Source: an uncultured Eubacteriales bacterium
GTDB lineage: Bacteria; Bacillota; Clostridia; Monoglobales; Monoglobaceae
Direction: 5' to 3'
Length of the DNA stretch: 26,924 bases
Assembly: GCA_900550775.1 (NCBI GenBank)
Contig: URTH01000003.1
Span: 1-26,924 of the forward strand
Part shown: one piece after another, positions 2,123 to 14,496 of the stretch
Position numbering within the stretch: position 1 is the first letter of the stretch
Layout: each line of letters opens with the position of its first letter
Notes under the pieces: generated by a model
Databases searched by the model: none
The model's input: the letters and a program-made list of their open reading frames with translations, nothing else
Told to the model about the DNA's origin: nothing
Program-made: the position numbers and the translations under genes

Positions 2123-2151
2123 TTGACATTGTCTATAAGTGATGATAAAAT
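2123..2151 (+). promoter_or_regulatory. Sigma-A-type promoter of the SLH protein gene
   Basis: TTGACA at 2123-2128 and TAAAAT at 2146-2151 are separated by 17 bases, so the -35 is perfect and the -10 differs at one position. Transcription should start near 2158, giving an untranslated leader of about 80 bases. This fits high expression of a surface protein. Confidence 0.82.
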
Positions 2152-2239
2152 AGGATTTGTGAAAGTGTACATACACACTGCACCAAAATACATGGTCAAT
2201 GATTCAAAACACATTATATTTATACAGGAGGAATGGAAG

Positions 2240-5116
2240 ATGAAAAAAACAAAACGGCTTTTTGCGTCTGCGTTAGCGGCAATCATGGTCGCAACCTCAA
2301 TGGTTGTTCCCGTGTTTGCGGATAACGCGGCAGAGGATACGAAAACAACGGCTGCCACATCGGAGGTATTTCCCGATGTTGCAAAGGACGCGGTTTACGT
2401 CACTTCGGTTGAGACGCTGAATTTGATGGGTATTATCAAGGGATATGAGGACGGTACGTTCGGTCCGCTGCAAAACGTGACCCGTGCGGAATTTACCGCA
2501 ATGCTGATGAGAACCTTAAATTATGGATCGCTCGGATCGTCCAGTGCGGCGGCATTGCCTTTTACGGATGTCGATGATAATAATTCCGATATTAACTGGG
2601 CAATCCCGAACATCAATACGGCGTATGATATGGGCATTATCAACGGTTATGAGGACGGCACCTTCCGCCCGAATGACAACGTTGCTTATGAAGAAGCGCT
2701 CAAGATGATCGTTTGCACCCTGGGCTATACCGATATCAGTGTGGACAGCACGCCGTGGTACAGCTTATACCTCTCCCAGGCAAAGAAGCTTGGTATCACA
2801 GACGTTGCAGACGGACTGGGCAGCGCCGGAACACCGGCCAGCCGTGCGTGCATCGCGCAAATGCTGTATGATTCCCTGGAGGCAGAGATTGTCGAGCAGG
2901 GCAATGTCACCAAAAAGACCATTTTGACGGACTACCTGGGCTATGTCAAGAGCACCGGTGTGGTTTCCTCGGACGGCGTAACCAGCCTGAGTGAGCCGGA
3001 CGCGGACTTGAGAGACGATGAGGTACAGATCAATGGCCAGGAGCCGGATGGCAGCTATGCAACGTATACCTACAAGACCACCGATTCCAAGCTGAAGAAT
3101 TATCTGGGCTATGAGATTGAATATTATTATAAGGACAACGGCGCATCGCTCAGAACGCTTGCGGTTTACGTACTGCGTCAGAACAATACGCTGACCCTGA
3201 CTGCCGACATGATTGAAGACGGCGCAAGCACAAACAATCAGATCCGTTATTACAAGAGTGATGCGGACAAGAATACCGTTTCCGTTTCGCTGGCATCCGA
3301 CAACGTTGTGATCTACAACGGAAAGCTGTACGGCCTGAACGGGACAAACAGTGCATTCAGCCTTGATATGATCCCGAAGGTTGGCACAATTACCCTGCTT
3401 GATTCCGATTCGGACGGCAAGTATGAGATCGTAAAGATCGAAAGCTATGAAATTTACTACGTTTCCAGCAAGGTTTCTGCGGAGTACTCCATCATTGATG
3501 ATGTGACCCGCAGCGGCAATGATAAAAAGCTGATTCTGGATGTGAATGACAACGCGATTGACACTAGGATTGTTAACACCAGCGGCAACGAGATCAATTA
3601 TAGCGCGATTGCAACCGGCAACATTATCTGCCTGGCAAAGAGCAACCCGGCCAACGGCGGTAAGCAGGTGCAGACGGCGGTTGTTGTCAATGACAGCGTA
3701 ACCGGAACGGTTACGGCAGTAGAGCCGGGCAAGTCTATGACGATTGCCGGCACCAAATATGAATATTCTAAGGCTGCACCGTGGATCAGCGGCGCCAACA
3801 CCAATCTGACCGAGCCGCAGTTACAGGATTCCGGCACGTATTGCAAGGATATTAACGGCGACATCGTTGCGTATAAAAAGAATGCGGTAACCGAGAATGT
3901 TTACTATGGTTATATCATGGGGATTGCAGATGCAAAAGGCGCGTTTGACGATGAAAAGTCGGTTCGGATTCTGACCCAAAGCGGCAGTGAGATTGAGGCT
4001 ATTCTGCAAAAGAATGTACGTGTGGACAATAACGCTTGCACCGTTTCGGAAGCAATGACTGCGTTGCAGAACGCAGCAAGAAATCAGAAAGAGGCTGACG
4101 CGGTTGGCGCAACGGTGCATCAGACCATTAAGTACACCACCAAGACCTCCGGCGGCAAGACGGTTTTGGATAAGATCTACACCGCAACCGGCGCGGATAA
4201 CGGCGCTGAGGTTGTTTCCAATGCGATTACCTATTACACGCCGTCTAACGGCCAGACCATGAAGTATGACAGCACCGCAAAGCAGCTGAAAGTTGGCAAT
4301 GTCAGCGTTAACATCGGCAGCGCAACCATCTTTGTTGTACCGAATAACCGCGGTGAATATAAGAACTATAAAAAGGCTGGATTATCTGCAACCTTTAAGA
4401 ACGGCCAGAGCTATACGGTAGACCTCTTTGATGTCAGCAAGACCAATGCGGCAAAAGTGGTTGTATGCTACGGCGGAAATGCCAGCAGCGATGTTGACAG
4501 CCTGTCGGCAGTCAATGTATTGTCTGAGGATCCGGAGAGCAGAACCAACACAGATAACGGCGACACCATGAACTACCTGACCGGATATAAGGCTTCTTAC
4601 AGCAGTGCAAAGGGAACCTTGGGTACATGGCTTTCTGATGAGACGGAATATATTCCGCAGCTTGGCGATATTTTCCGCGCCGGTACTGACCGGGATGGTT
4701 TTGCGGTTGCCAAGGACAGAGATTTGCTCTACCGTGTCGGCGGCAATAATCAGTTTGGTATCTTAAAGGGTGCCTCGAACTTCTATCAGGATGAATGTGC
4801 GATTATGCTGGGCAGCGTGATTGCAACCGATGACAATAGCATTTCGATTCTGCCGCAGCGTCTGGCAGAGGGCGATATCATTGACAGCACGTCCGAGGCG
4901 ATGAACTTTACCTTCTCGCAATTTAGCGGTGCGCGTGTGCTGCAATACGATGATGCCGGCAGAGAACTGGTAATCAACGATGTGTCGGATGATTATGAGG
5001 GCGTTTTAAAGGGTCTTGCAGGTTATAATGAGGGCCTGTCGAATCCGGATAAAGTGCTTCTGTATATGCACAAGGGTTCTGTAAAGCTCCTTTGCGTCTT
5101 AGACAGCGAAGCATAA
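2240..5116 (+). CDS. Secreted S-layer-homology (SLH) domain protein
   Basis: A 958-residue exported cell-surface protein. The start at 2240 follows AGGAGG with eight bases of spacing and begins a clear signal peptide (MKKTKRLF, hydrophobic core, likely cleavage after VFA near residue 27). Three SLH units follow at about 44-95, 107-162 and 171-215. The first carries the canonical TRAE motif and the first two share GYEDGTF. The motif is degenerate in the second (AYEE) and third (ASRA). SLH domains bind pyruvylated secondary cell-wall polymer and hold the protein to the wall. The remaining 740 or so residues are polar, rich in Gly, Asn, Asp, Thr and Ser, with no catalytic motif I recognise. Some stretches recur in style (for example VTAVEPGKSMTIAGTKY) and suggest beta-sandwich repeats. 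It could be the main S-layer protein or an accessory surface protein. Confidence 0.9.
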   Translation: MKKTKRLFASALAAIMVATSMVVPVFADNAAEDTKTTAATSEVFPDVAKDAVYVTSVETLNLMGIIKGYEDGTFGPLQNVTRAEFTAMLMRTLNYGSLGSSSAAALPFTDVDDNNSDINWAIPNINTAYDMGIINGYEDGTFRPNDNVAYEEALKMIVCTLGYTDISVDSTPWYSLYLSQAKKLGITDVADGLGSAGTPASRACIAQMLYDSLEAEIVEQGNVTKKTILTDYLGYVKSTGVVSSDGVTSLSEPDADLRDDEVQINGQEPDGSYATYTYKTTDSKLKNYLGYEIEYYYKDNGASLRTLAVYVLRQNNTLTLTADMIEDGASTNNQIRYYKSDADKNTVSVSLASDNVVIYNGKLYGLNGTNSAFSLDMIPKVGTITLLDSDSDGKYEIVKIESYEIYYVSSKVSAEYSIIDDVTRSGNDKKLILDVNDNAIDTRIVNTSGNEINYSAIATGNIICLAKSNPANGGKQVQTAVVVNDSVTGTVTAVEPGKSMTIAGTKYEYSKAAPWISGANTNLTEPQLQDSGTYCKDINGDIVAYKKNAVTENVYYGYIMGIADAKGAFDDEKSVRILTQSGSEIEAILQKNVRVDNNACTVSEAMTALQNAARNQKEADAVGATVHQTIKYTTKTSGGKTVLDKIYTATGADNGAEVVSNAITYYTPSNGQTMKYDSTAKQLKVGNVSVNIGSATIFVVPNNRGEYKNYKKAGLSATFKNGQSYTVDLFDVSKTNAAKVVVCYGGNASSDVDSLSAVNVLSEDPESRTNTDNGDTMNYLTGYKASYSSAKGTLGTWLSDETEYIPQLGDIFRAGTDRDGFAVAKDRDLLYRVGGNNQFGILKGASNFYQDECAIMLGSVIATDDNSISILPQRLAEGDIIDSTSEAMNFTFSQFSGARVLQYDDAGRELVINDVSDDYEGVLKGLAGYNEGLSNPDKVLLYMHKGSVKLLCVLDSEA

Positions 5117-5127
5117 CTTAGAATATG

Positions 5128-5440
5128 AAAGGGGCGCCGCGAAGGCCGCCACCGGACAAGGAAACGTTGCCCTGAGAAACATCTTTTTTGCGAATCTCTG
5201 CGTTAAAAAAGTCTCGCAATCCGACAGGATTACTCGCTTTTTTGCCTTGACCTTCATCAAAAAATATTGTTTCCAGGGTGCAAAGCAGTTTTGAACATCG
5301 TAGTTTAAGCTTTAGACAAGAAGAAAAGCCGCCGTAATACTGACGTATACGGCGGTTTTTTGACGAAGTATAAACTTAAACTACGGCTTCAAGACCAATG
5401 TTTCCTTATCCGGTGGCGGCCAATGCGGCGCCCTTTTTTT
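5128..5440. repeat. Branched nested inverted-repeat element between convergent genes
   Basis: This fills nearly all of the 337-base gap between the SLH and MATE genes. An outer inverted repeat pairs 5131-5169 with 5397-5439 (blocks of 9, 13, 8 and 3 matches with few mismatches). Inside are two further arms. Arm B pairs 5170-5190 with 5258-5278 (about 17 pairs with small bulges) and encloses a weaker hairpin at 5205-5243. Arm D pairs 5291-5314 with 5369-5392 and encloses the strong hairpin at 5324-5361. The predicted fold is a three-way junction on either strand. No target-site duplication is clear. It may be a MITE-like non-autonomous element or a structured RNA; I do not recognise the family. 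Confidence 0.75.
5324..5361. terminator. Bidirectional rho-independent terminator
   Basis: CCGCCGTA at 5329-5336 pairs with TACGGCGG at 5348-5355. AAAA lies on the left (5324-5327) and TTTTTT on the right (5356-5361), so the hairpin has a U-tract on both strands. It sits between the convergent SLH (+) and MATE (-) genes and would end both transcripts. It is also the tip of one arm of the larger inverted-repeat element. Confidence 0.9.
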
Positions 5441-5453
5441 GTACAAAAGTTTG

Positions 5454-6797
5454 TCAGGACAGATCGGATACCACGTTTTTCATCCACTTTTTGCTGCGAA
5501 AATGCAGGGTAGCCATCACCAGCTTCACGGCTTCCTCGGCATACATCATGAGATAGACATAAAAGAGCGGAAGATGAAGGACAAATCCGCCAAGCAAAAC
5601 CATGGGTACGCCGATACACCAAACCGATCCGATATCGATCAGACAGGCCGTCCGGGTATCGCCGCCGTTGCGGAACACCCCGACAATCAGCAAAAAGGTC
5701 ATGGATTTTACATTCATCATGACTGCAACCAGAAACAAAAGGTGCATGGCCTGCCGGTACACGCCCTCTGAAATATTGTACGGCATTAAAATGACGGGCC
5801 GCAGCAGAATAAATGCGGCGGACAGGACAAGCGCGGTACAAAAGGATAAAAACATCAGCTTTTTGGCATAAAGATAGGCTTGCTTGTACTTTTGCGCGCC
5901 AACCGCCTTGCCGATAAAGACACCGGCTGCGTTGCCGCCGCCATGGAAAAATACCAGCATCAGGCGCTCGATGTTTTGCACAATGGTAATAATGACCATG
6001 GCATCGCTGCTGATGCGTGCAAAGACCCAAGTATAGGCGGTGATGCCAAGCGCCCATGCCATTTCGTTAAAAATGACCGGCGTTGCGGTTTTTAAAAATT
6101 GCACGACAAGGTCCTTCCGAATCGAAAAAAGCTGTGAAAATCCGGCAGCCTGAATCATCTTTTTTCCGTAGACAACCGAAAGCATCACGGCAAGCTCGGA
6201 AAACCTCGCAATGACGGTGGCGATCGCGGCGCCGTTTACGCCCATGGCGCGTACGCCAAAATGGCCGAAAATCAAAATCCAGTTCAGTACAATGTTGACA
6301 GTCAGCCCGACAGCACGCACCAAAAACGGCAGTGCCGCGCGTTCGCTGCAGCATACGCTCATGTCAAAGGCAGTGGTAATCGCGGTTGCCAGATACCCGA
6401 TACAGACAATCCGAAGATAGGGGACACCGGCATGCAAGACCTCCGGGCTTGCCTGAAAGGCGTGAAAAATCGGCACAGGGATAAAAAGCGCAGCGGCAAC
6501 AAAAATCAGGGATAGCGCAAAGGCCAGTAAAATATTGAGTCCCAGGACGCTCCGCATCTCTTTAATGTTTTGCTTTCCCCAAAACTGGGAGGCAAAAACA
6601 CCGGCGCCGCAGCTGATGCCGAACAGAAAAACGGTATAGAGAAAGTAGACCTGGTTTCCGATGCCGACGGCGGCAATGGCGGTCTCGCCCAGTCTCCCGA
6701 CCATAATCGTATCAATCAGGTTGACCAGCGACGAGATAAGCTCTTTAAGCGCCATCGGAATCATCAGTAAAAAAAATCGTTTGTAAAATGATTTCAT
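5454..6797 (-). CDS. MATE family efflux transporter
   Basis: A 447-residue inner-membrane transporter of the multidrug and toxin extrusion (MATE) family, which exports drugs or metabolites by sodium or proton antiport. The protein is hydrophobic throughout, with about 12 predicted membrane helices in two related halves. The first half shows the family pattern around LVNLIDTIMVGRLGE and ASQFWGKQN, and the second half contains the equivalent GKAVGAQKY. I chose the ATG at 6797 (MKSFYKRFF) because AGGAGG precedes it; a longer frame back to 6902 has no ribosome site. The stop lies 13 bases before the inverted-repeat element. The substrate cannot be predicted. It is separated from the upstream zinc-ribbon gene by 159 bases, in which I see no convincing promoter, so it may be read through from the ruvX operon. 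Confidence 0.93.
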   Translation of the reverse strand: MKSFYKRFFLLMIPMALKELISSLVNLIDTIMVGRLGETAIAAVGIGNQVYFLYTVFLFGISCGAGVFASQFWGKQNIKEMRSVLGLNILLAFALSLIFVAAALFIPVPIFHAFQASPEVLHAGVPYLRIVCIGYLATAITTAFDMSVCCSERAALPFLVRAVGLTVNIVLNWILIFGHFGVRAMGVNGAAIATVIARFSELAVMLSVVYGKKMIQAAGFSQLFSIRKDLVVQFLKTATPVIFNEMAWALGITAYTWVFARISSDAMVIITIVQNIERLMLVFFHGGGNAAGVFIGKAVGAQKYKQAYLYAKKLMFLSFCTALVLSAAFILLRPVILMPYNISEGVYRQAMHLLFLVAVMMNVKSMTFLLIVGVFRNGGDTRTACLIDIGSVWCIGVPMVLLGGFVLHLPLFYVYLMMYAEEAVKLVMATLHFRSKKWMKNVVSDLS

Positions 6798-6956
6798 AGT
6801 TCCTCCTATGTAGCATTTGATGTGCAAAAAAACCAGCCTCATCAAGCGAAAATCGCCGTCAGAGACAGATCTCATAATGGTCAAAAAATATTCTATCGAC
6901 AAGCGTGTGCCAAATTCGGTAAGCCATCGGCAGGCAAATCAAGGCATATCGGGTGC

Positions 6957-8721: not shown

Positions 8722-10131
8722 CTATAAGACAAAACGGTGATAATCCGACAGTTTTTCGGTTGCCAGCGGATTATAGGGCAGGGTCTTTTTTGCCTTGTCC
8801 ATGCGCGGGGCGATCGGATCACTCATAAAAAAATACTTTAAGGCGTCATAGAGGTGATCCTCCTGCCGGGTGTCAACGTCCTCCGGGTTGACGCTGTCAT
8901 AATGCAGCTGCGGCAGTGTACGGATCATGTTTTTGCAGCAGTCAAAGACGTAAAACATGGGAATCCCGTTTTCGTCAAAGGCCAGACGGTAATGCACCTG
9001 CATTTTCCCGGCCAGACGGTCGTTTTTTCCTTTTTCAAAATAAACGCCTTCGCGCTCCATCATGGCCGCAATGCTCCCCTCGGTCGATCCGGTGGCGTTC
9101 CAGATGGCAGGGTCGGCGTAGCCGCAGATCGACAAGCCTTGCTCCTCCCGATCCTCAATGGCGCGAATCTCTTTGGCAATCTTTTGCGCGGTCCAGCGTA
9201 CGCCGGTGTCCGGGGCGCCGGTGCATCCGTACAGCTCGCGGTACAGATAGGCGCGGCCGTCGTGGTCGACCGCAAACCAGCACACGGCAAACGGCTTGGC
9301 ATAACCAAAGTCAAAGGTGCGAAACCGCCGCCATTCCTTTGGAATCGGAAACGGCCGAATCACATGAGAAAACTGTCTTGTTTCGTAGCCCTTGGGGTTG
9401 TTTTGCCATTCCGTAAAGACTTGTCCGTCAAAAATGTCCCATTGCCCGTAAAGCAGCGCCTTTCGTTCCGCCTCCGGCAGCTGCTCCAGTCTCTTTTGAT
9501 AATCGGCGTCGGCACGCATCAAAAAGACGTTGTCGCTGACAAAGGAGGGGATAAAGATGCGGCTTGCGCCGGTTTTAACATCCCGAAATCCCTCGCCCGG
9601 CGTATGTCCGTCAATAAACCGGCGTTTGACCCAGCTGTGTCCGATGCCGCCGGGGTTGGTGCTGGATTTCATTTGCTTGGGATAGCGGTTGACCCCGCGA
9701 ATCCTGGAGAGCAGGTAGGTGTACTGTTCCTCCGTAAAATGGGTCAGCTCGTCAAAGCGTACCACATCGTACTCCGCGCCCTGGTAGCGCAGTACATCCT
9801 TTTCTGCCGCGCAGTAGCCAAATTCAATCAGAGAGCCGTTTAAAAATTCCCAGCGGTGGCTGCTGCTTCGGTATGTTGCGGCATCGGCAGGAAAAAACTG
9901 CAAAGAGGTATAAATGATCGAATGCTCCAGCTCCGGGAAGGTGCGGCGCAGAATAAGCTGCCGGCTTTTGGGGTAGCGCAGCGCATAAAGCAGTGCGTCA
10001 ACCAGTTGTCCGTAGGACTTGCCGCCGCCGGCAGCGCCGCCAAACAAAACCTCGTCTGCCTTGGCGTCAATAAATTTTTTTTGGGTTGCGGTCAGAGAAA
10101 GATCAAGCGTCTTTTGCATTATTTTTTTCAT
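8722..10131 (-). CDS. terL: Phage terminase large subunit
   Basis: A 469-residue DNA-packaging motor: an N-terminal ATPase that translocates DNA into the procapsid through the portal and a C-terminal RNase H-like nuclease that cuts the concatemer. All key elements are visible: Walker A GGAAGGGKS (about 31-39), Walker B VVRFDE with the catalytic Glu (about 123-128), the coupling motif TNPGG (about 158), and nuclease aspartates in FDFGYA (near 274), YADPAIW (near 340) and EDHLYDAL (near 425-429). I chose ATG 10131 because AGGAGG precedes it; a TTG at 10158 would add nine residues. It overlaps the preceding small gene by 29 bases. Both active sites look intact, which is notable in an island without a capsid gene. 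Confidence 0.95.
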   Translation of the reverse strand: MKKIMQKTLDLSLTATQKKFIDAKADEVLFGGAAGGGKSYGQLVDALLYALRYPKSRQLILRRTFPELEHSIIYTSLQFFPADAATYRSSSHRWEFLNGSLIEFGYCAAEKDVLRYQGAEYDVVRFDELTHFTEEQYTYLLSRIRGVNRYPKQMKSSTNPGGIGHSWVKRRFIDGHTPGEGFRDVKTGASRIFIPSFVSDNVFLMRADADYQKRLEQLPEAERKALLYGQWDIFDGQVFTEWQNNPKGYETRQFSHVIRPFPIPKEWRRFRTFDFGYAKPFAVCWFAVDHDGRAYLYRELYGCTGAPDTGVRWTAQKIAKEIRAIEDREEQGLSICGYADPAIWNATGSTEGSIAAMMEREGVYFEKGKNDRLAGKMQVHYRLAFDENGIPMFYVFDCCKNMIRTLPQLHYDSVNPEDVDTRQEDHLYDALKYFFMSDPIAPRMDKAKKTLPYNPLATEKLSDYHRFVL

Positions 10132-10339
10132 CCGGATCCTCCTGACTTTCGCCGACAATGCGGATGTTGACGGTCAGCGCAACGGTTTGTTCCTTTTCGC
10201 TTTCCCTTTCCAGTTCCTCTGCCAGCGATAAAATTTCCTTTGCGGCAGACAGCTCGACCCGCTCATTGCCGCAGTGCAAGAGCTCCTTGAGTTTTTCCGC
10301 CGCCTGTGCATGGGATTGTATGTTGTTTGGTTCCTTCAT
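10103..10339 (-). CDS. Small phage protein upstream of terL, possible small-terminase role
   Basis: A 78-residue protein, largely helical and charged, containing AAEKLKELL and SAAKEILSLAEELE. I recognise no family with confidence. Its position immediately before terL, overlapping it by 29 bases, is where small terminase subunits are usually found, and the SAAKEIL stretch resembles phage small-subunit-like proteins, but it is short and has no clear helix-turn-helix. The ATG at 10339 has GGAGGT in front; the longer frame to 10438 does not. It also overlaps the upstream sigma-like gene by 77 bases in another frame. It could equally be an accessory regulator. Confidence 0.65.
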   Translation of the reverse strand: MKEPNNIQSHAQAAEKLKELLHCGNERVELSAAKEILSLAEELERESEKEQTVALTVNIRIVGESQEDPDEKNNAKDA

Positions 10340-10727
10340 TTGGTTTTTTACCTCCAATCTCAATGCCGACCAGACGCAAAACGGCGTTGTTATGAATCCG
10401 TATCGCCTGCCGCCGGCAGTAATGAACATGAAATTCAATTGCGTCCCAATAAAGCTGGTTGACGTAGCGCGCCGTCAGGATGCTCCGCTCCTCCGGCGTC
10501 AAATGCTCCATCATGCTGTCAAAACAGGAAACCAGTTCCTTTAGTTTTTGGTGAATCTCATCAATCTGTGTTTGATAATAGTGAATATACTTTTCTCCGA
10601 CTGTCCCCATTTTCGCACTGTCACGAATTAAATCCTGATAAAAATCCGATTTCATTGTAAGCTCTTTCCGCAATAGCGGCAGCCCGCGCAGCCATTTCTT
10701 TACTTCCTCTACTGTTGAAAATCTCAT
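10263..10727 (-). CDS. Sigma-70 region 4-like phage transcriptional activator
   Basis: A 154-residue protein whose residues about 75-120 look like a sigma-70 region 4 helix-turn-helix: LTPEERSILTARYV, then DAIEFHVHYCRRQAIRI, then HNNAVLRL. Proteins of this type (ArpU/RinA-like activators, often sitting just before the terminase genes) switch on phage late or packaging genes; that role is inferred here. The N-terminal half is helical and may mediate dimer contacts. The ATG at 10727 has GAGGA in front and lies three bases after the zinc-finger gene. The last 25 or so residues (from GGKKPNEG) overlap the next gene and look unlike the rest, so this tail may be a relic of a frameshift or extension. 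Confidence 0.7.
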   Translation of the reverse strand: MRFSTVEEVKKWLRGLPLLRKELTMKSDFYQDLIRDSAKMGTVGEKYIHYYQTQIDEIHQKLKELVSCFDSMMEHLTPEERSILTARYVNQLYWDAIEFHVHYCRRQAIRIHNNAVLRLVGIEIGGKKPNEGTKQHTIPCTGGGKTQGALALRQ

Positions 10728-10730
10728 TCC

Positions 10731-10988
10731 TCATTCATCCTTTCTTTTGTAAAATGTTGTCCGTCTTTCCATCGGCCGTTCGGACAAGACAGCGAAGCCA
10801 TCGGAGCGCATGTAGGCGCGGCGGCATTGTGCGTTGCAAAATACGTTGTTGTCCTCAAAAACGATATTCGGATTGTATCTGCGATACAAGGGAGCGCCGC
10901 AGCAACGGCACTCTCCGATTTGCCGCCCGTCTCGCATAGGTTCCAATTCTCCGAACTTTTCCATCGTCAAAATATCCGGGTGTGTCAT
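10731..10988 (-). CDS. Small zinc-finger protein, first gene of the terminase operon
   Basis: An 85-residue protein with a likely zinc-binding site: CRCCG (Cys 27, 29 and 30) and CNAQC (Cys 51 and 55), separated by about 20 residues. This spacing suits a single treble-clef or zinc-ribbon unit. I do not recognise the family; small Cys-rich proteins are common in phage early operons and may bind DNA or a host protein. The ATG at 10988 has AAAGGAGGG five bases upstream, so the longer frame to 11027 is not used. It is the first gene after the leftward promoter at 11059-11086. Confidence 0.75.
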   Translation of the reverse strand: MTHPDILTMEKFGELEPMRDGRQIGECRCCGAPLYRRYNPNIVFEDNNVFCNAQCRRAYMRSDGFAVLSERPMERRTTFYKRKDE

Positions 10989-11058
10989 TTTGTTCCCTCC
11001 TTTGCGGCACGAAGTTTTATTTACCATAATTTCCCAATATTTTGACTGGCATATTCCT

Positions 11059-11086
11059 ATTATACAACATAAATATCGTTTGTCAA
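11059..11086 (-). promoter_or_regulatory. Leftward promoter of the terminase operon
   Basis: On the minus strand a perfect TTGACA (11081-11086) and perfect TATAAT (11059-11064) are 16 bases apart. It should start transcription near 11052, about 64 bases before the zinc-finger gene. A promoter this strong implies control, most likely by the divergent repressor. Confidence 0.85.
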
Positions 11087-11147
11087 TAGAAAAAAACCAA
11101 AAATATTGTTGAATTTTCTCTTGTAATGCGGAAAAATTTATGTTATA
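11061..11147. promoter_or_regulatory. Candidate paired operators overlapping both divergent -10 boxes
   Basis: ATACAACATAAAT at 11062-11074 and ATTTATGTTATAC at 11136-11148 are inverted copies matching at 11 of 13 positions. Each covers one of the two divergent -10 boxes. Such symmetry suggests that the S24 repressor binds both promoters. A second, weaker ACAA...TTGT symmetry spans 11064-11083. The protein-DNA link is inferred. Confidence 0.5.
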
Positions 11148-11149
11148 CT
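11121..11149 (+). promoter_or_regulatory. Rightward promoter of the repressor gene
   Basis: TTGTAA (11121-11126) and TATACT (11144-11149) are 17 bases apart. The start site would be near 11156, leaving a leader of only about 11 bases that contains the ribosome site. The promoter points away from the stronger leftward promoter, as in a phage genetic switch. Confidence 0.78.
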
Positions 11150-11166
11150 AGCGGTGAGGTGAAATT

Positions 11167-11874
11167 ATGGCAAACAGCTATATCAGTGAAAAATTAAAAG
11201 CTGCCCGCATCGCATCCGGCCTGAAGCAAAGAGAGGTATATGAATGGCTTGGCGTCGGCCAATCGACCTTCAGTGCCTGGGAGACCGGAGCCAGTGAGCC
11301 GTCCATCGGCGTTTTTCTCAGGCTCTGTCAAAAATACGGAATTCAGGATATCTATGCCTATTTTATGCCGGACTCTCCGCTGCAGGGACTTTGGAAGGAT
11401 TTGGATCCCTCGTTTTTAAATCGGCTGCTTGCACTGCCGCCGCGTGGCAGGGCGGCAGTAAAGAACTGCCTGGATTTTGAATATAAAGCATCGATGCAAA
11501 AACGGATTCCCCTGCAGCCGCGTAATATTATGGTATATACGCAGGTTGCGACGGCCGGGCGCGGCAGTTACCTGGATGACCAGGACGCCGAGGTCTGCCA
11601 TATCGAGGCGCCGGAGACGGCGTCTTATGCAATCCGCATCTCCGGCGACAGTATGGAGCCGCTGATTCATGACGGTGATCTGGTGTTTGTGCAGCGCCAG
11701 AATGAGCTTGCCTCCGGCGAAATCGGCATCTTTACTTATAATGGAGAGTGCTTTTGCAAAATGTGGGATAACCGCAACGGTGTTCCCAAACTGATCTCGC
11801 TCAATAAAAAGTATGCGCCGATTTTTGTGCAGGCATCGGATAATTTGTACGTCAACGGCAAGGTGTTGCTTTAG
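11167..11874 (+). CDS. XRE-family repressor with S24 self-cleaving domain (CI/LexA-like)
   Basis: A 235-residue phage-type repressor. Residues about 5-60 form an XRE helix-turn-helix (LKQREVYEWLGVGQSTFSAW). The C-terminal S24 domain (about 125-235) has the Ala-Gly cleavage site in ATAGRGS (130/131), the nucleophile Ser in GDSMEP (162) and the general-base Lys in CFCKMW (198). All self-cleavage residues are present, so it is expected to inactivate itself when RecA is activated by DNA damage, releasing the divergent operon. GGTGAGGTGA precedes the ATG. Its gene converges on the portal gene with only 18 bases between stops and no terminator visible there. Confidence 0.93.
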   Translation: MANSYISEKLKAARIASGLKQREVYEWLGVGQSTFSAWETGASEPSIGVFLRLCQKYGIQDIYAYFMPDSPLQGLWKDLDPSFLNRLLALPPRGRAAVKNCLDFEYKASMQKRIPLQPRNIMVYTQVATAGRGSYLDDQDAEVCHIEAPETASYAIRISGDSMEPLIHDGDLVFVQRQNELASGEIGIFTYNGECFCKMWDNRNGVPKLISLNKKYAPIFVQASDNLYVNGKVLL

Positions 11875-11892
11875 GCCGTGACGCACGTGTTC

Positions 11893-13557
11893 TTATTTCG
11901 TTTTTTGCGCGTCTTGGTGCGGTGTTTGGGCTTTTTCCGTACCGGGCGCGCTGTTTTCGTTTGGCGCGGCGGCCGCCGCATCGCGCTGCTTTAAAATGCT
12001 TTCCATGATTTTTTCTTTTCCGTCCAAATACATTGCGTCCAGCAAAATGGCGGCGCTCTCCGCCATGTCGGGACGAAAGACGCCCAGCTTCCATAAATCG
12101 GTCAGAGTCTGGTTTTGACTGATGCGGCTGTATGGGTTGTTTTTTTCGGCGCTGACGGCAATGTCAAATTCGACCGGCCGCATTGCGGTGCTCTGCCGCA
12201 GGCTGTGGCTGGAAAACCTGATATATTCCCGTGCGCCGTTTGGCCCGTCCACGCGGTAGGTGCGCGGCTGATGATAGAATTGGCGCATCAGTTCGATGCA
12301 AAGCAGAATGATTTCCTTGTAGGCGTTATACCCCTCGGCAATCATATCGCGGCTGAGTTTTTCGCCGGCCTGCTGCAGTGCGACAATGGCAGAGTATGCC
12401 GTCACGCCGCCGCTGGTCTGTCCCTGCTGGAAGTCGCGGTTGCCGGAGACTTCTTTGAGCTCCTCAATTTTATTTTGCCGATGGGCAATGATAAAGCTGT
12501 GCAGCGGTTTTGCTTGCAGCTCGCGAATGTTTTCTTCGCTGACCGATCCGGCCACATGGATAATGTCTTTGGAGAGATCGCTCAGCTCGTATTCGTTCAG
12601 GCCGCCGTTGTCCTTTACCATAAACCGGGTCTTGCCGGAGATCAGGGCGTTGCGGCTGATCAGGGCGTCCAGACGGTCGATGTAAAGCTGCGGACTTTTG
12701 ATGATATCAACCAGTCCAAAGCCGACCGGACTGTCCTCATCGGGGTACATGACGTCAAAGACAAAGGGGTACTTCCCGTGATGGTAAATGCCGTCCTCGC
12801 CGCGATCCTCGGACGCATCTAAAATCTGGTTGCCGCAGAATTTTATAAGCTCTACCGTCTGCGCACCGTCACGCTGTTTTTTATAGTAGCAGTCCACAAC
12901 CAGAATTTTGTTGTGGGTCACATCGCTGCCGCTGGTGTTTTGCATGTCGTCATAGGTTAAAATCTCCATCGGACTGCCGGCGGTAAACTTGTCCGCAAGG
13001 TGCGGATATTGCCGCTTAAGGTCGTCCGGGTCGCAAAGCGCGGTCAAAAAAACAAAACGGCTGTCCTGAATATCGCAGATGCCCGGCTCCCAAAAGAGGT
13101 TTAAAAGGTCGATTTTGCGGATGTCGATTTCGCCCATGCCGCCGCGCAGCCGCGGATTAAAGAATACGCCGTAGCAGGCGGCACCGTTTTTTAATTTATA
13201 CCACCATGCGCGGCTGTATGTGCGCTTAAAGTTGCATAAATCCAGCTGCACCGGAAGAATCCGGGTAAAGGTCTCCGCGATTTTGCGATCCGCCTCATCA
13301 CGCTCTAAAATATTGGGAGACGGATAATTGTCCATGGCGTCTGCATGCTTGTTGGCAATGGCGTTAAAAAGGTAGGGTGTGGTCGGTTCCGGCATTTCGT
13401 CCTGCTGTTCGCCCATGTAGCGCGATTTAAACCAGCGGTTGTTTTCGATGACACGCCGGTCAAAGGCCTGCTTGTGTTCCTTGTAGCGCCGAAACTCCTC
13501 GGTGAGCAACCGAAAGAATTCCGGCTTGATGATTCCCTCATAATTTTGATTTTCCAT
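11893..13557 (-). CDS. Phage portal protein
   Basis: A 554-residue protein resembling portal proteins, the dodecameric ring at a capsid vertex through which terminase pumps DNA. Supporting features are the length, the N-terminal NNRWFKSRYMGE region, the early PYLFNAIANKHADAM stretch typical of P22-like portals, the long central mixed domain and an Ala/Pro/Gln-rich disordered C-terminus. I chose ATG 13557: the ATG at 13563 would have only two bases after AAGGAG, whereas 13557 has eight. The gene follows the fibre-like gene by 17 bases, so the two form one unit. No frameshift or internal stop is seen. Its natural partner terL is present in the island but in a separate transcription unit. Confidence 0.85.
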   Translation of the reverse strand: MENQNYEGIIKPEFFRLLTEEFRRYKEHKQAFDRRVIENNRWFKSRYMGEQQDEMPEPTTPYLFNAIANKHADAMDNYPSPNILERDEADRKIAETFTRILPVQLDLCNFKRTYSRAWWYKLKNGAACYGVFFNPRLRGGMGEIDIRKIDLLNLFWEPGICDIQDSRFVFLTALCDPDDLKRQYPHLADKFTAGSPMEILTYDDMQNTSGSDVTHNKILVVDCYYKKQRDGAQTVELIKFCGNQILDASEDRGEDGIYHHGKYPFVFDVMYPDEDSPVGFGLVDIIKSPQLYIDRLDALISRNALISGKTRFMVKDNGGLNEYELSDLSKDIIHVAGSVSEENIRELQAKPLHSFIIAHRQNKIEELKEVSGNRDFQQGQTSGGVTAYSAIVALQQAGEKLSRDMIAEGYNAYKEIILLCIELMRQFYHQPRTYRVDGPNGAREYIRFSSHSLRQSTAMRPVEFDIAVSAEKNNPYSRISQNQTLTDLWKLGVFRPDMAESAAILLDAMYLDGKEKIMESILKQRDAAAAAPNENSAPGTEKAQTPHQDAQKTK

Positions 13558-13574
13558 AATCATTTCTCCTTTTC

Positions 13575-14465
13575 TCAGGCTTTTGCGGTCAGCGCCGCAA
13601 TATCGTTTTCTATTTTGTTAATTTTTGCTTCAATATCAATGCCGTTGAGCATAACCCTCTGCCCGGTGACCCAGATTTCACCGTTTTCTTCCCAAAAGGT
13701 AATAAAGGGCGAATAGCCGACCAGCCCCATGTTGGCGTAATTTTCCGCCTTTTCGATCTTAAAGGCGCCGTTGGTATACACCACACCGTTGATGCTGTGG
13801 CTGCCCTCGCCATTGCCGGCGCCCAGAACCAGGTAGGCGGTGCCGTTGTCGCCGACCGACATGCCCAGCTTTTGCTTGCGGACGCCGTTTTCATCCTGCA
13901 TCATTTTGATGCCGGTCGGATCCATCAGGGCAAATACGCCGCCGGTTTGGTTGGTATAATTCTGACTGTTTGTACCGACAATGGTAGAGGCGTAGATGGC
14001 GGAGCTCTCTACCGTTCCGCTAAAGACGGCCTCGCCGCTGCTGTTGATCGAGACGGTGGGGATGCCCTGTGCATCGCAAAGCATAAACTGAAATTTTTGC
14101 GTGTCCTTGTCGTAGGCGGCCAAAAACCGCGTCCTCTCTCCGCGGTCGCGGATGATGAGCTTAGAGCCGCTGATTTCCATCTTTCCGCTGTTATCCCTGA
14201 CGGATACCTTGGAGGTGTCGACCGTGCCGGCCGTCAGCTTGTCCGCCGTCAGTGCGCCGATTTGCGCGTTGCTGATTTTGGCGTTGTTTGTGTCAATGTT
14301 TTCCGCCTTGACGGCGGCCGCCTCGCTGACGTTTCCGGCGTCCAGGTTTTGAAAGAGGTACGACAGTTCATCCACCAGCGCCGTGCCCCATTCCTTGACC
14401 GCCCGAATGTCCCGGCCGGTGTCCCCGGTCAGCTTGGGCGGTATCGGTGTTGTTAAGTTTGGCAT
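13575..14465 (-). CDS. Phage tail fibre/minor structural-like protein
   Basis: A 296-residue protein with features of phage tail or appendage proteins. Residues about 1-40 are a short head (PIPPKLTGDTGRDIRAV). A repetitive Asn/Ala/Thr-rich stretch (AKISNAQIGALTADKLTAG) typical of phage host-specificity and fibre proteins comes next. The remainder is a Gly-rich beta-type domain, ending in a short coiled coil (KINKIENDIAALTAKA). The start at 14465 has GGAGG with eight bases of spacing. A specific family is not certain; a virion-surface role is inferred from composition and from linkage to the portal gene. It is unusual for a fibre-like gene to be directly upstream of a portal gene. Confidence 0.62.
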   Translation of the reverse strand: MPNLTTPIPPKLTGDTGRDIRAVKEWGTALVDELSYLFQNLDAGNVSEAAAVKAENIDTNNAKISNAQIGALTADKLTAGTVDTSKVSVRDNSGKMEISGSKLIIRDRGERTRFLAAYDKDTQKFQFMLCDAQGIPTVSINSSGEAVFSGTVESSAIYASTIVGTNSQNYTNQTGGVFALMDPTGIKMMQDENGVRKQKLGMSVGDNGTAYLVLGAGNGEGSHSINGVVYTNGAFKIEKAENYANMGLVGYSPFITFWEENGEIWVTGQRVMLNGIDIEAKINKIENDIAALTAKA

Positions 14466-14496
14466 GTTTGATTCCTCCATTTCTTGGTTTTCTTTT

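Follow-up and report, generated by a model that had tools for sequence, protein, structure and literature searches.

A folded element between two convergent genes

The window analysed here is a stretch of 26,924 nucleotides from an uncultured Eubacteriales bacterium, in which a gene encoding SLH domains and a gene of the MatE family (MATE) converge on an intergenic region that is filled by an inverted repeat (Table 1). The outer arms of this repeat begin 11 bases past the SLH stop and 13 bases past the MATE stop, spacings that an earlier note on this DNA had given and that agree with the ORF ends at 5116 and 5454. The same note had described the region as almost wholly paired, and folding of 5120-5450 bears this out: the plus strand reaches -155.7 kcal/mol (z -14.3) and the minus strand -150.6 kcal/mol (z -12.5), with none of 100 shuffles as good in either case. 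We also recovered its two independent arms and the terminator-like hairpin that caps the second. What had been read as a three-way junction is instead a four-way junction, a conserved mini-hairpin between the arms having been overlooked. The outer inverted repeat is present (5128-5169 with 5396-5437, 86% complementary), although it is not the single unit that had been described, but two nested layers: an outermost stem, P0, which varies from copy to copy of the family described below, and inside it the element's own outer helix, P1. P0 is followed by its own T-run, and therefore termination need not occur only at the inner terminator. The boundaries of the element proper were placed after the pattern had been noticed, and the ORF list holds no ORF of at least 90 aa inside them.

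Table 1. Position and basis of the features discussed, numbered from the first base of the window.
Feature	Position	Strand	Basis or detail
Upstream convergent gene, SLH domains	2123..5116	+	ORF list
Left half of enclosing (host) terminator stem P0	5128..5140		AAAGGGGCGCCGC; pairs with 5425-5437
Mobile element proper, 279 bp	5143..5421		Ends placed by eye against homologous copies
Left half of the element's outer helix P1	5143..5169		Pairs with 5396-5421
Arm 1	5170..5278		Tip 5205-5243 (A-run, hairpin, T-run) is the best match to other copies
Mini-hairpin TGC-AAA-GCA between the arms	5279..5287		Three pairs invariant in 13 aligned copies
Arm 2	5288..5395		Internal loop TTAGACAAG / GAAGTATAAAC
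Bidirectional terminator-like tip of arm 2	5324..5361		AAAAGCCGCCGTA...TACGGCGGTTTTTT
Right half of P1	5396..5421		Pairs with 5143-5169
Right half of P0 and T-run	5425..5440		GCGGCGCCC at 5425-5433; T-run at 5434-5440
Downstream convergent gene, MatE family (MATE)	5454..6902	-	ORF list
Terminase large subunit	8722..10158		Phage-gene patch
Regulator	10263..10727		Phage-gene patch
CI/LexA-like repressor	11167..11874		Phage-gene patch
Portal protein	11893..13563		Phage-gene patch
Tail-like unknown	13575..14480		Phage-gene patch

No second copy of the folded region was found within the 26.9-kb window, and plasmid and phage records held no match to the intergenic region. Rfam 15 gave no match at the gathering score in the window, and for 5000-5600 and seven copies it gave sub-threshold matches only. 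An orthologous SLH gene was found in 10 of the 11 relatives examined at this locus, and all 10 have a hairpin 3' of it, usually a plain terminator; the element was not detected in the 9-kb stretches around these orthologues. The MATE gene is not the neighbour of the SLH orthologue in the relatives, and these loci are therefore not strict empty sites.

Dispersed copies in related genomes

The nearest relatives were traced through the window's U32 peptidase among 391 members of the class, the best being 77% identical (genome G079). A blast search with 5100-5460 against 38 genomes of the related family gave matches in 12 of them at E 0.01 or better, often several per genome, and the best match to the window was 74% over 244 bases (G405). 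To varying degrees the aligned copies have the tip of arm 1, the mini-hairpin (TGCnnnGCAGTTTTG) and arm 2 in common, and their outer ends divide them into subtypes. At E 0.001, a covariance model built on the mini-hairpin and arm 2 of 13 copies found matches in 26 of the 51 genomes in the order of G399, where the 12 copies of the model that come from these 51 genomes match by construction. At 1e-5 the model found matches in 36 of 291 Clostridia genomes, and in ten genomes beyond the 51 of the order matches reached 1e-17 or better. Within the order, up to 25 matches were listed for one genome, a copy matched on its two strands being counted twice, and the many copies of a genome adjoin different genes. 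Dispersed copies in relatives, which the earlier note had named as a mark of a mobile element, are thus found by both methods.

One further locus, L071 (G130), is a short hairpin that has a P1 of the type seen in the window but lacks the arms, and is probably an internally deleted copy. Two scans of viral contigs with exact patterns taken from pieces of the outer arm returned two and six stretches, and a scan of genome contigs returned 14. The first viral scan and the genome scan used a common pattern; for all 16 of their stretches, the closest complement lying within 500 bases agreed at only 11-14 of 20 positions, and we attribute these to chance. For the six stretches from the second viral pattern, the comparison was by blast alone. 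A scan of viral contigs with the MATE protein found no relative.

The enclosing stem as a probable split terminator

When the element is removed and the flanks of the window copy are joined, they read GGGCGCCGC-GAAAT-GCGGCGCCC-T7, a perfect intrinsic terminator at -27.8 kcal/mol, and their pairing with each other beats all 380 mismatched pairings. Many copies are likewise enclosed by a further, copy-specific stem with an A-run before it and a T-run after it, and joining the flanks of other copies yields textbook intrinsic terminators. For 20 copies of this terminator type, flank-flank pairing came to -14.2 kcal/mol compared with -6.5 kcal/mol for the 380 mismatched pairings (p 3e-7), and 12 of the 20 were equalled by at most 10 of the 380. 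A terminator stem can be seen by eye in 14 of the 20, two of which (L170 and L189) do poorly on pairing energy, and the enclosing stem is absent from the other six (L054-L057, L068 and L187). With five classed loci from genomes outside the order added (L303, L304, L307, L310 and L311, three of which lie in terminators), 15 of 25 loci beat the 5% threshold in flank pairing. A T-run of at least five bases lies within 26 bases rightward in 14 of these 25, compared with 2 of 23 copies of the TA type described below (Fisher p 5e-4). We conclude that P0 is probably the split terminator in which the element landed, and not part of the element.

These flank tests were run without the loci cut by contig ends (L060, L062-L067, L074, L075, L080-L084, L168, L169 and L186), without L171, which occupies the same site as L187, and without the internally deleted L071. 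Five TA-type loci whose ends were missed by the search pattern (L184, L204, L206, L208 and L211) were dropped, and L053, L072, L087, L173, L174, L177, L182, L193-L202 and L213-L227 were left unclassified. The nine loci outside the order comprise the five classed ones, two without the mini-hairpin pattern (L308 and L309) and a variant represented by L305 (G072) and L306 (G044). This variant is longer, almost identical between the two genomes, and has a conserved outer stem, AATACCCC...GGGGTATT, which may belong to the element.

Empty sites in sister genomes

We searched for empty sites of 12 terminator-type copies, all picked for a visible stem; the stemless L054-L057, L068 and L187, as well as L088 and the window copy, were left out. 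The joined flanks of seven copies were searched in 38 genomes and those of five more in five genomes. Empty sites were found for eight of the 12, and all eight are uninterrupted terminator hairpins of differing sequence. At L058, L061 and L070 a sister genome matches straight across the joint, with the sequences GGATGAAG-AATAAT-CTTCATCC-T6, AAGGTGGTC-CTAATT-GACCACCTT and AACCTCC-TGAAAA-GGAGGTT, respectively. For all five of L185, L188, L172, L189 and L170, one or two sister genomes have the empty site, which is always a terminator hairpin and mostly has the stem of the filled copy; at L188 the terminators of both sister genomes carry a stem sequence other than that of the filled copy, and at L185 the sister terminator differs in part in one of two genomes. 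L059 has a half site, where in G309 the gene on the left leads into an unbroken terminator and the right flank lies elsewhere, and for L052, L069 and L089 no match across the joint was found in the 38 genomes. Together with three of the four TA-type copies searched, these empty sites support the MITE-like mobile element that the earlier note had favoured.

The same comparison bears on whether P0 might be the element's own, merely variable part, with no host terminator involved. In the fold there is hardly any boundary between P0 and P1, and P1 too varies while its complementarity is kept, both of which would fit such a reading. Against this, P0 differs between copies of type c whose elements are about 89-97% identical, and sister genomes that lack the element have terminators alone at the same places, mostly with the same stem. 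For most copies whose empty site was found this excludes the idea, and overall we regard it as highly improbable. Insertion into hairpins or terminators without a sequence consensus, the behaviour of IS1272-type elements, is seen at all eight empty sites. The bases flanking the terminator-type copies show no target-site duplication of a fixed kind such as a MITE would leave: of 20 copies, 4 have the same two bases left and right of the element, none the same three and 2 the same four.

A subtype that inserts at TA

A second subtype has the same core and inserts at TA. The empty sites of this TA type are a single TA at all three found, and none is a terminator; in the filled copies TA lies on both sides at L175 and L190, and TA and TT at L192. 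Of 23 TA-type copies, 17 are flanked by TA left and right, a count that the search pattern favoured. Flank-flank pairing in these 23 is no better than in mismatched pairings (-6.5 vs -6.5 kcal/mol, p 0.65), with L210 an outlier whose flanks pair strongly.

Tc1/IS630 elements duplicate TA, and the existence of this subtype speaks for the view that the whole family is a TA-targeting MITE of the IS630/Tc1-like kind, landing anywhere in AT-rich intergenic DNA, with the copies in terminators being those that selection tolerates. Such a view is difficult to reconcile with the TA-type copies themselves, which show no terminator bias, or with the terminator-type copies, which have no constant flanking bases. 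In addition, an IS630-type (DDE_3) transposase was found in none of 12 genomes, and we consider this account improbable. Two subtypes with one core and different targets, a terminator hairpin or TA, amount to a natural experiment on shape recognition. Several TA-type copies among L175-L192 (G421 and G422) lie close 5' of a ribosome-binding site and start codon, and the subtype can therefore sit in 5' leaders.

Structural constraint on the repeat

Over the mini-hairpin and arm 2 of 13 copies, 94.8% of the cells are standard pairs, compared with 84.9% when shuffled and 40-55% when the register is slid. The covarying stems that had been proposed as a check are present, with 12 of 33 pairs changing on both sides against an average of 8.1 in shuffles. 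In 20 copies, the two halves of P1 pair with their own partners at an average of -27.2 kcal/mol, compared with -10.5 kcal/mol in 336 cross-pairings of copies that differ in P1 (p 1.4e-12, from pairings that are not independent of one another). P1 is paired in each of the 20, which gives the element the terminal inverted repeats of a MITE, with a sequence that varies between subtypes. The family is therefore both mobile and under structural constraint, and copies of it have inserted within terminator hairpins.

The conserved internal loops and mini-hairpin and the compensatory changes would also fit a structured RNA that acts locally, as a 3' UTR regulator or sRNA, in place of a mobile element. 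Presence and absence at the same place between sister species argue against this, as do the many copies per genome beside different genes. Mismatches in the stems lean toward G-U (65, vs 39 A-C; 18 copies have more G-U, 6 have more A-C and 9 are ties), yet the plus strand folds better than the minus strand in only 18 of 33 copies, and there is therefore no firm strand preference. We judge an RNA that does not move to be very unlikely. The RNA of a mobile element may have a function as well, but neither the mismatches nor the folding energies of the two strands clearly support a one-strand RNA function.

Candidate mobilising enzymes

IS1272 / TnSha1, of the IS1182 family, is described in PMC4923244 as targeting hairpins, often confirmed terminators, without a consensus or target duplication; it leaves stem halves on both sides and deletes part of the stem-loop. 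The element resembles it in lying in hairpins or terminators with no sequence consensus, no constant duplication and stem halves on either side. It differs in having no gene, where IS1272 is an autonomous IS, and in its conserved four-way core and its ends.

These likenesses raise the question of whether an IS1182-family transposase moves the element. G405, which bears the copy closest to the window, has a complete IS1182-type gene, and its IS (L243) carries the same 29-base palindromic sequence on both outer flanks (about 1295-1360 and 2930-2990), by eye a direct repeat and a terminator-like hairpin beside a T-run. The ends of this IS (CAGACTGAAGACAAA) are unlike those of the element. IS1182 transposase matched in 14 of 51 genomes and exceeded the cut-off in only 2 of 51, and no match was found in eight copy-bearing genomes (G399, G309, G418, G420, G421, G422, G400 and G412), which are drafts in which absence is weak evidence. 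The element behaves like a hairpin-targeting IS, but neither IS1182-family ends nor, in most copy-rich genomes, an IS1182-family transposase was found with it. Mobilisation by such a transposase is a minority reading that we think rather unlikely.

A Y1 transposase is present in 20 of 51 genomes, including G400, G404 and G405, and gave no match in G399, G309, G418, G420, G421, G422 and G412, so that the association expected of a REP/RAYT system was not found. A reverse transcriptase (RVT_1) is present in 12 of 51, among the copy-rich genomes only in G420. Genes for IS630-type, IS1182, Y1 and reverse transcriptase enzymes do not track the copies, with the reservation that absence from draft genomes is weak evidence, and no autonomous IS with the end pattern of the G418 copies was seen in these drafts.

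A proposed route of insertion

The reading that we prefer, with a probability of about 0.8, is that 5143-5421 is a non-autonomous, MITE-like element inserted in the hairpin loop of the bidirectional terminator between the SLH and MATE genes. The window copy would have arrived in the same way as the copies of its relatives, by insertion into a pre-existing terminator. We hypothesize that it is the shape of the hairpin, in a cruciform or in single-stranded DNA, that directs insertion, and not the sequence, because the targets have no common sequence and the flanks no constant duplication. Such insertion would be cheap, as the split stem could re-pair across the compact element and arm 2 could supply a terminator of its own, and the mobilising enzyme may be encoded elsewhere. 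More tentatively, we speculate that this is a Clostridia-wide, gene-free family that homes to terminators by shape alone and moves by a so far undescribed route, with the folded four-way core, as single-stranded DNA or RNA, being the part that the enzyme recognises. If the enzyme recognises the core, the outer helix would be free to vary between copies.

Because terminators are numerous, hairpin-forming and situated outside genes, they would offer an insertion an ideal and safe place. A repeat inserted into their loops, with a stem that re-pairs and a terminator of its own, would, if the proposal is true, spread at low cost and shape the evolution of 3' ends in many Clostridia, and it makes testable how a transposition machine recognises hairpin shape without sequence.

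Comparison with known repeats

We found no description of this repeat family in the open-licence literature searched, and its novelty is provisional. What is new here is the composite nature of the outer inverted repeat, the landing-site terminator and the element's own helix being nested. Bacterial MITEs are short, non-coding, folded, multi-copy sequences with inverted repeats (PMC10969869). The element, at 279 bp, is likewise short, without a transposase gene and present in many dispersed copies, and its TA subtype is as expected of a MITE; unlike MITEs as described there, the terminator subtype has variable outer repeats, a conserved core in place of conserved ends, and no constant duplication. 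RUP, BOX and SPRITE of pneumococcus are, like the element, small interspersed folded repeats, and SPRITE resembles a terminator and lies near the 3' ends of genes (PMC3049150). SPRITE is itself one long stem, and unlike these repeats as described there, the element lies inside a pre-existing terminator hairpin. IS1397, ISKpn1 and IS621 land specifically in REP palindromes (PMC1525189), and the element similarly lands in palindromic units. These IS are autonomous and have one repeated target sequence, whereas the target hairpins of the element each differ.

Other features of the window

Elsewhere in the window, the phage genes of Table 1 form a patch (8722-14480) with ordinary bacterial genes on either side. 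A 12-base tandem array (GCCCACRCCGGA-like) occupies positions 17-181, directly 5' of an N-acetylmuramoyl-L-alanine amidase domain, and probably encodes a proline-threonine linker.
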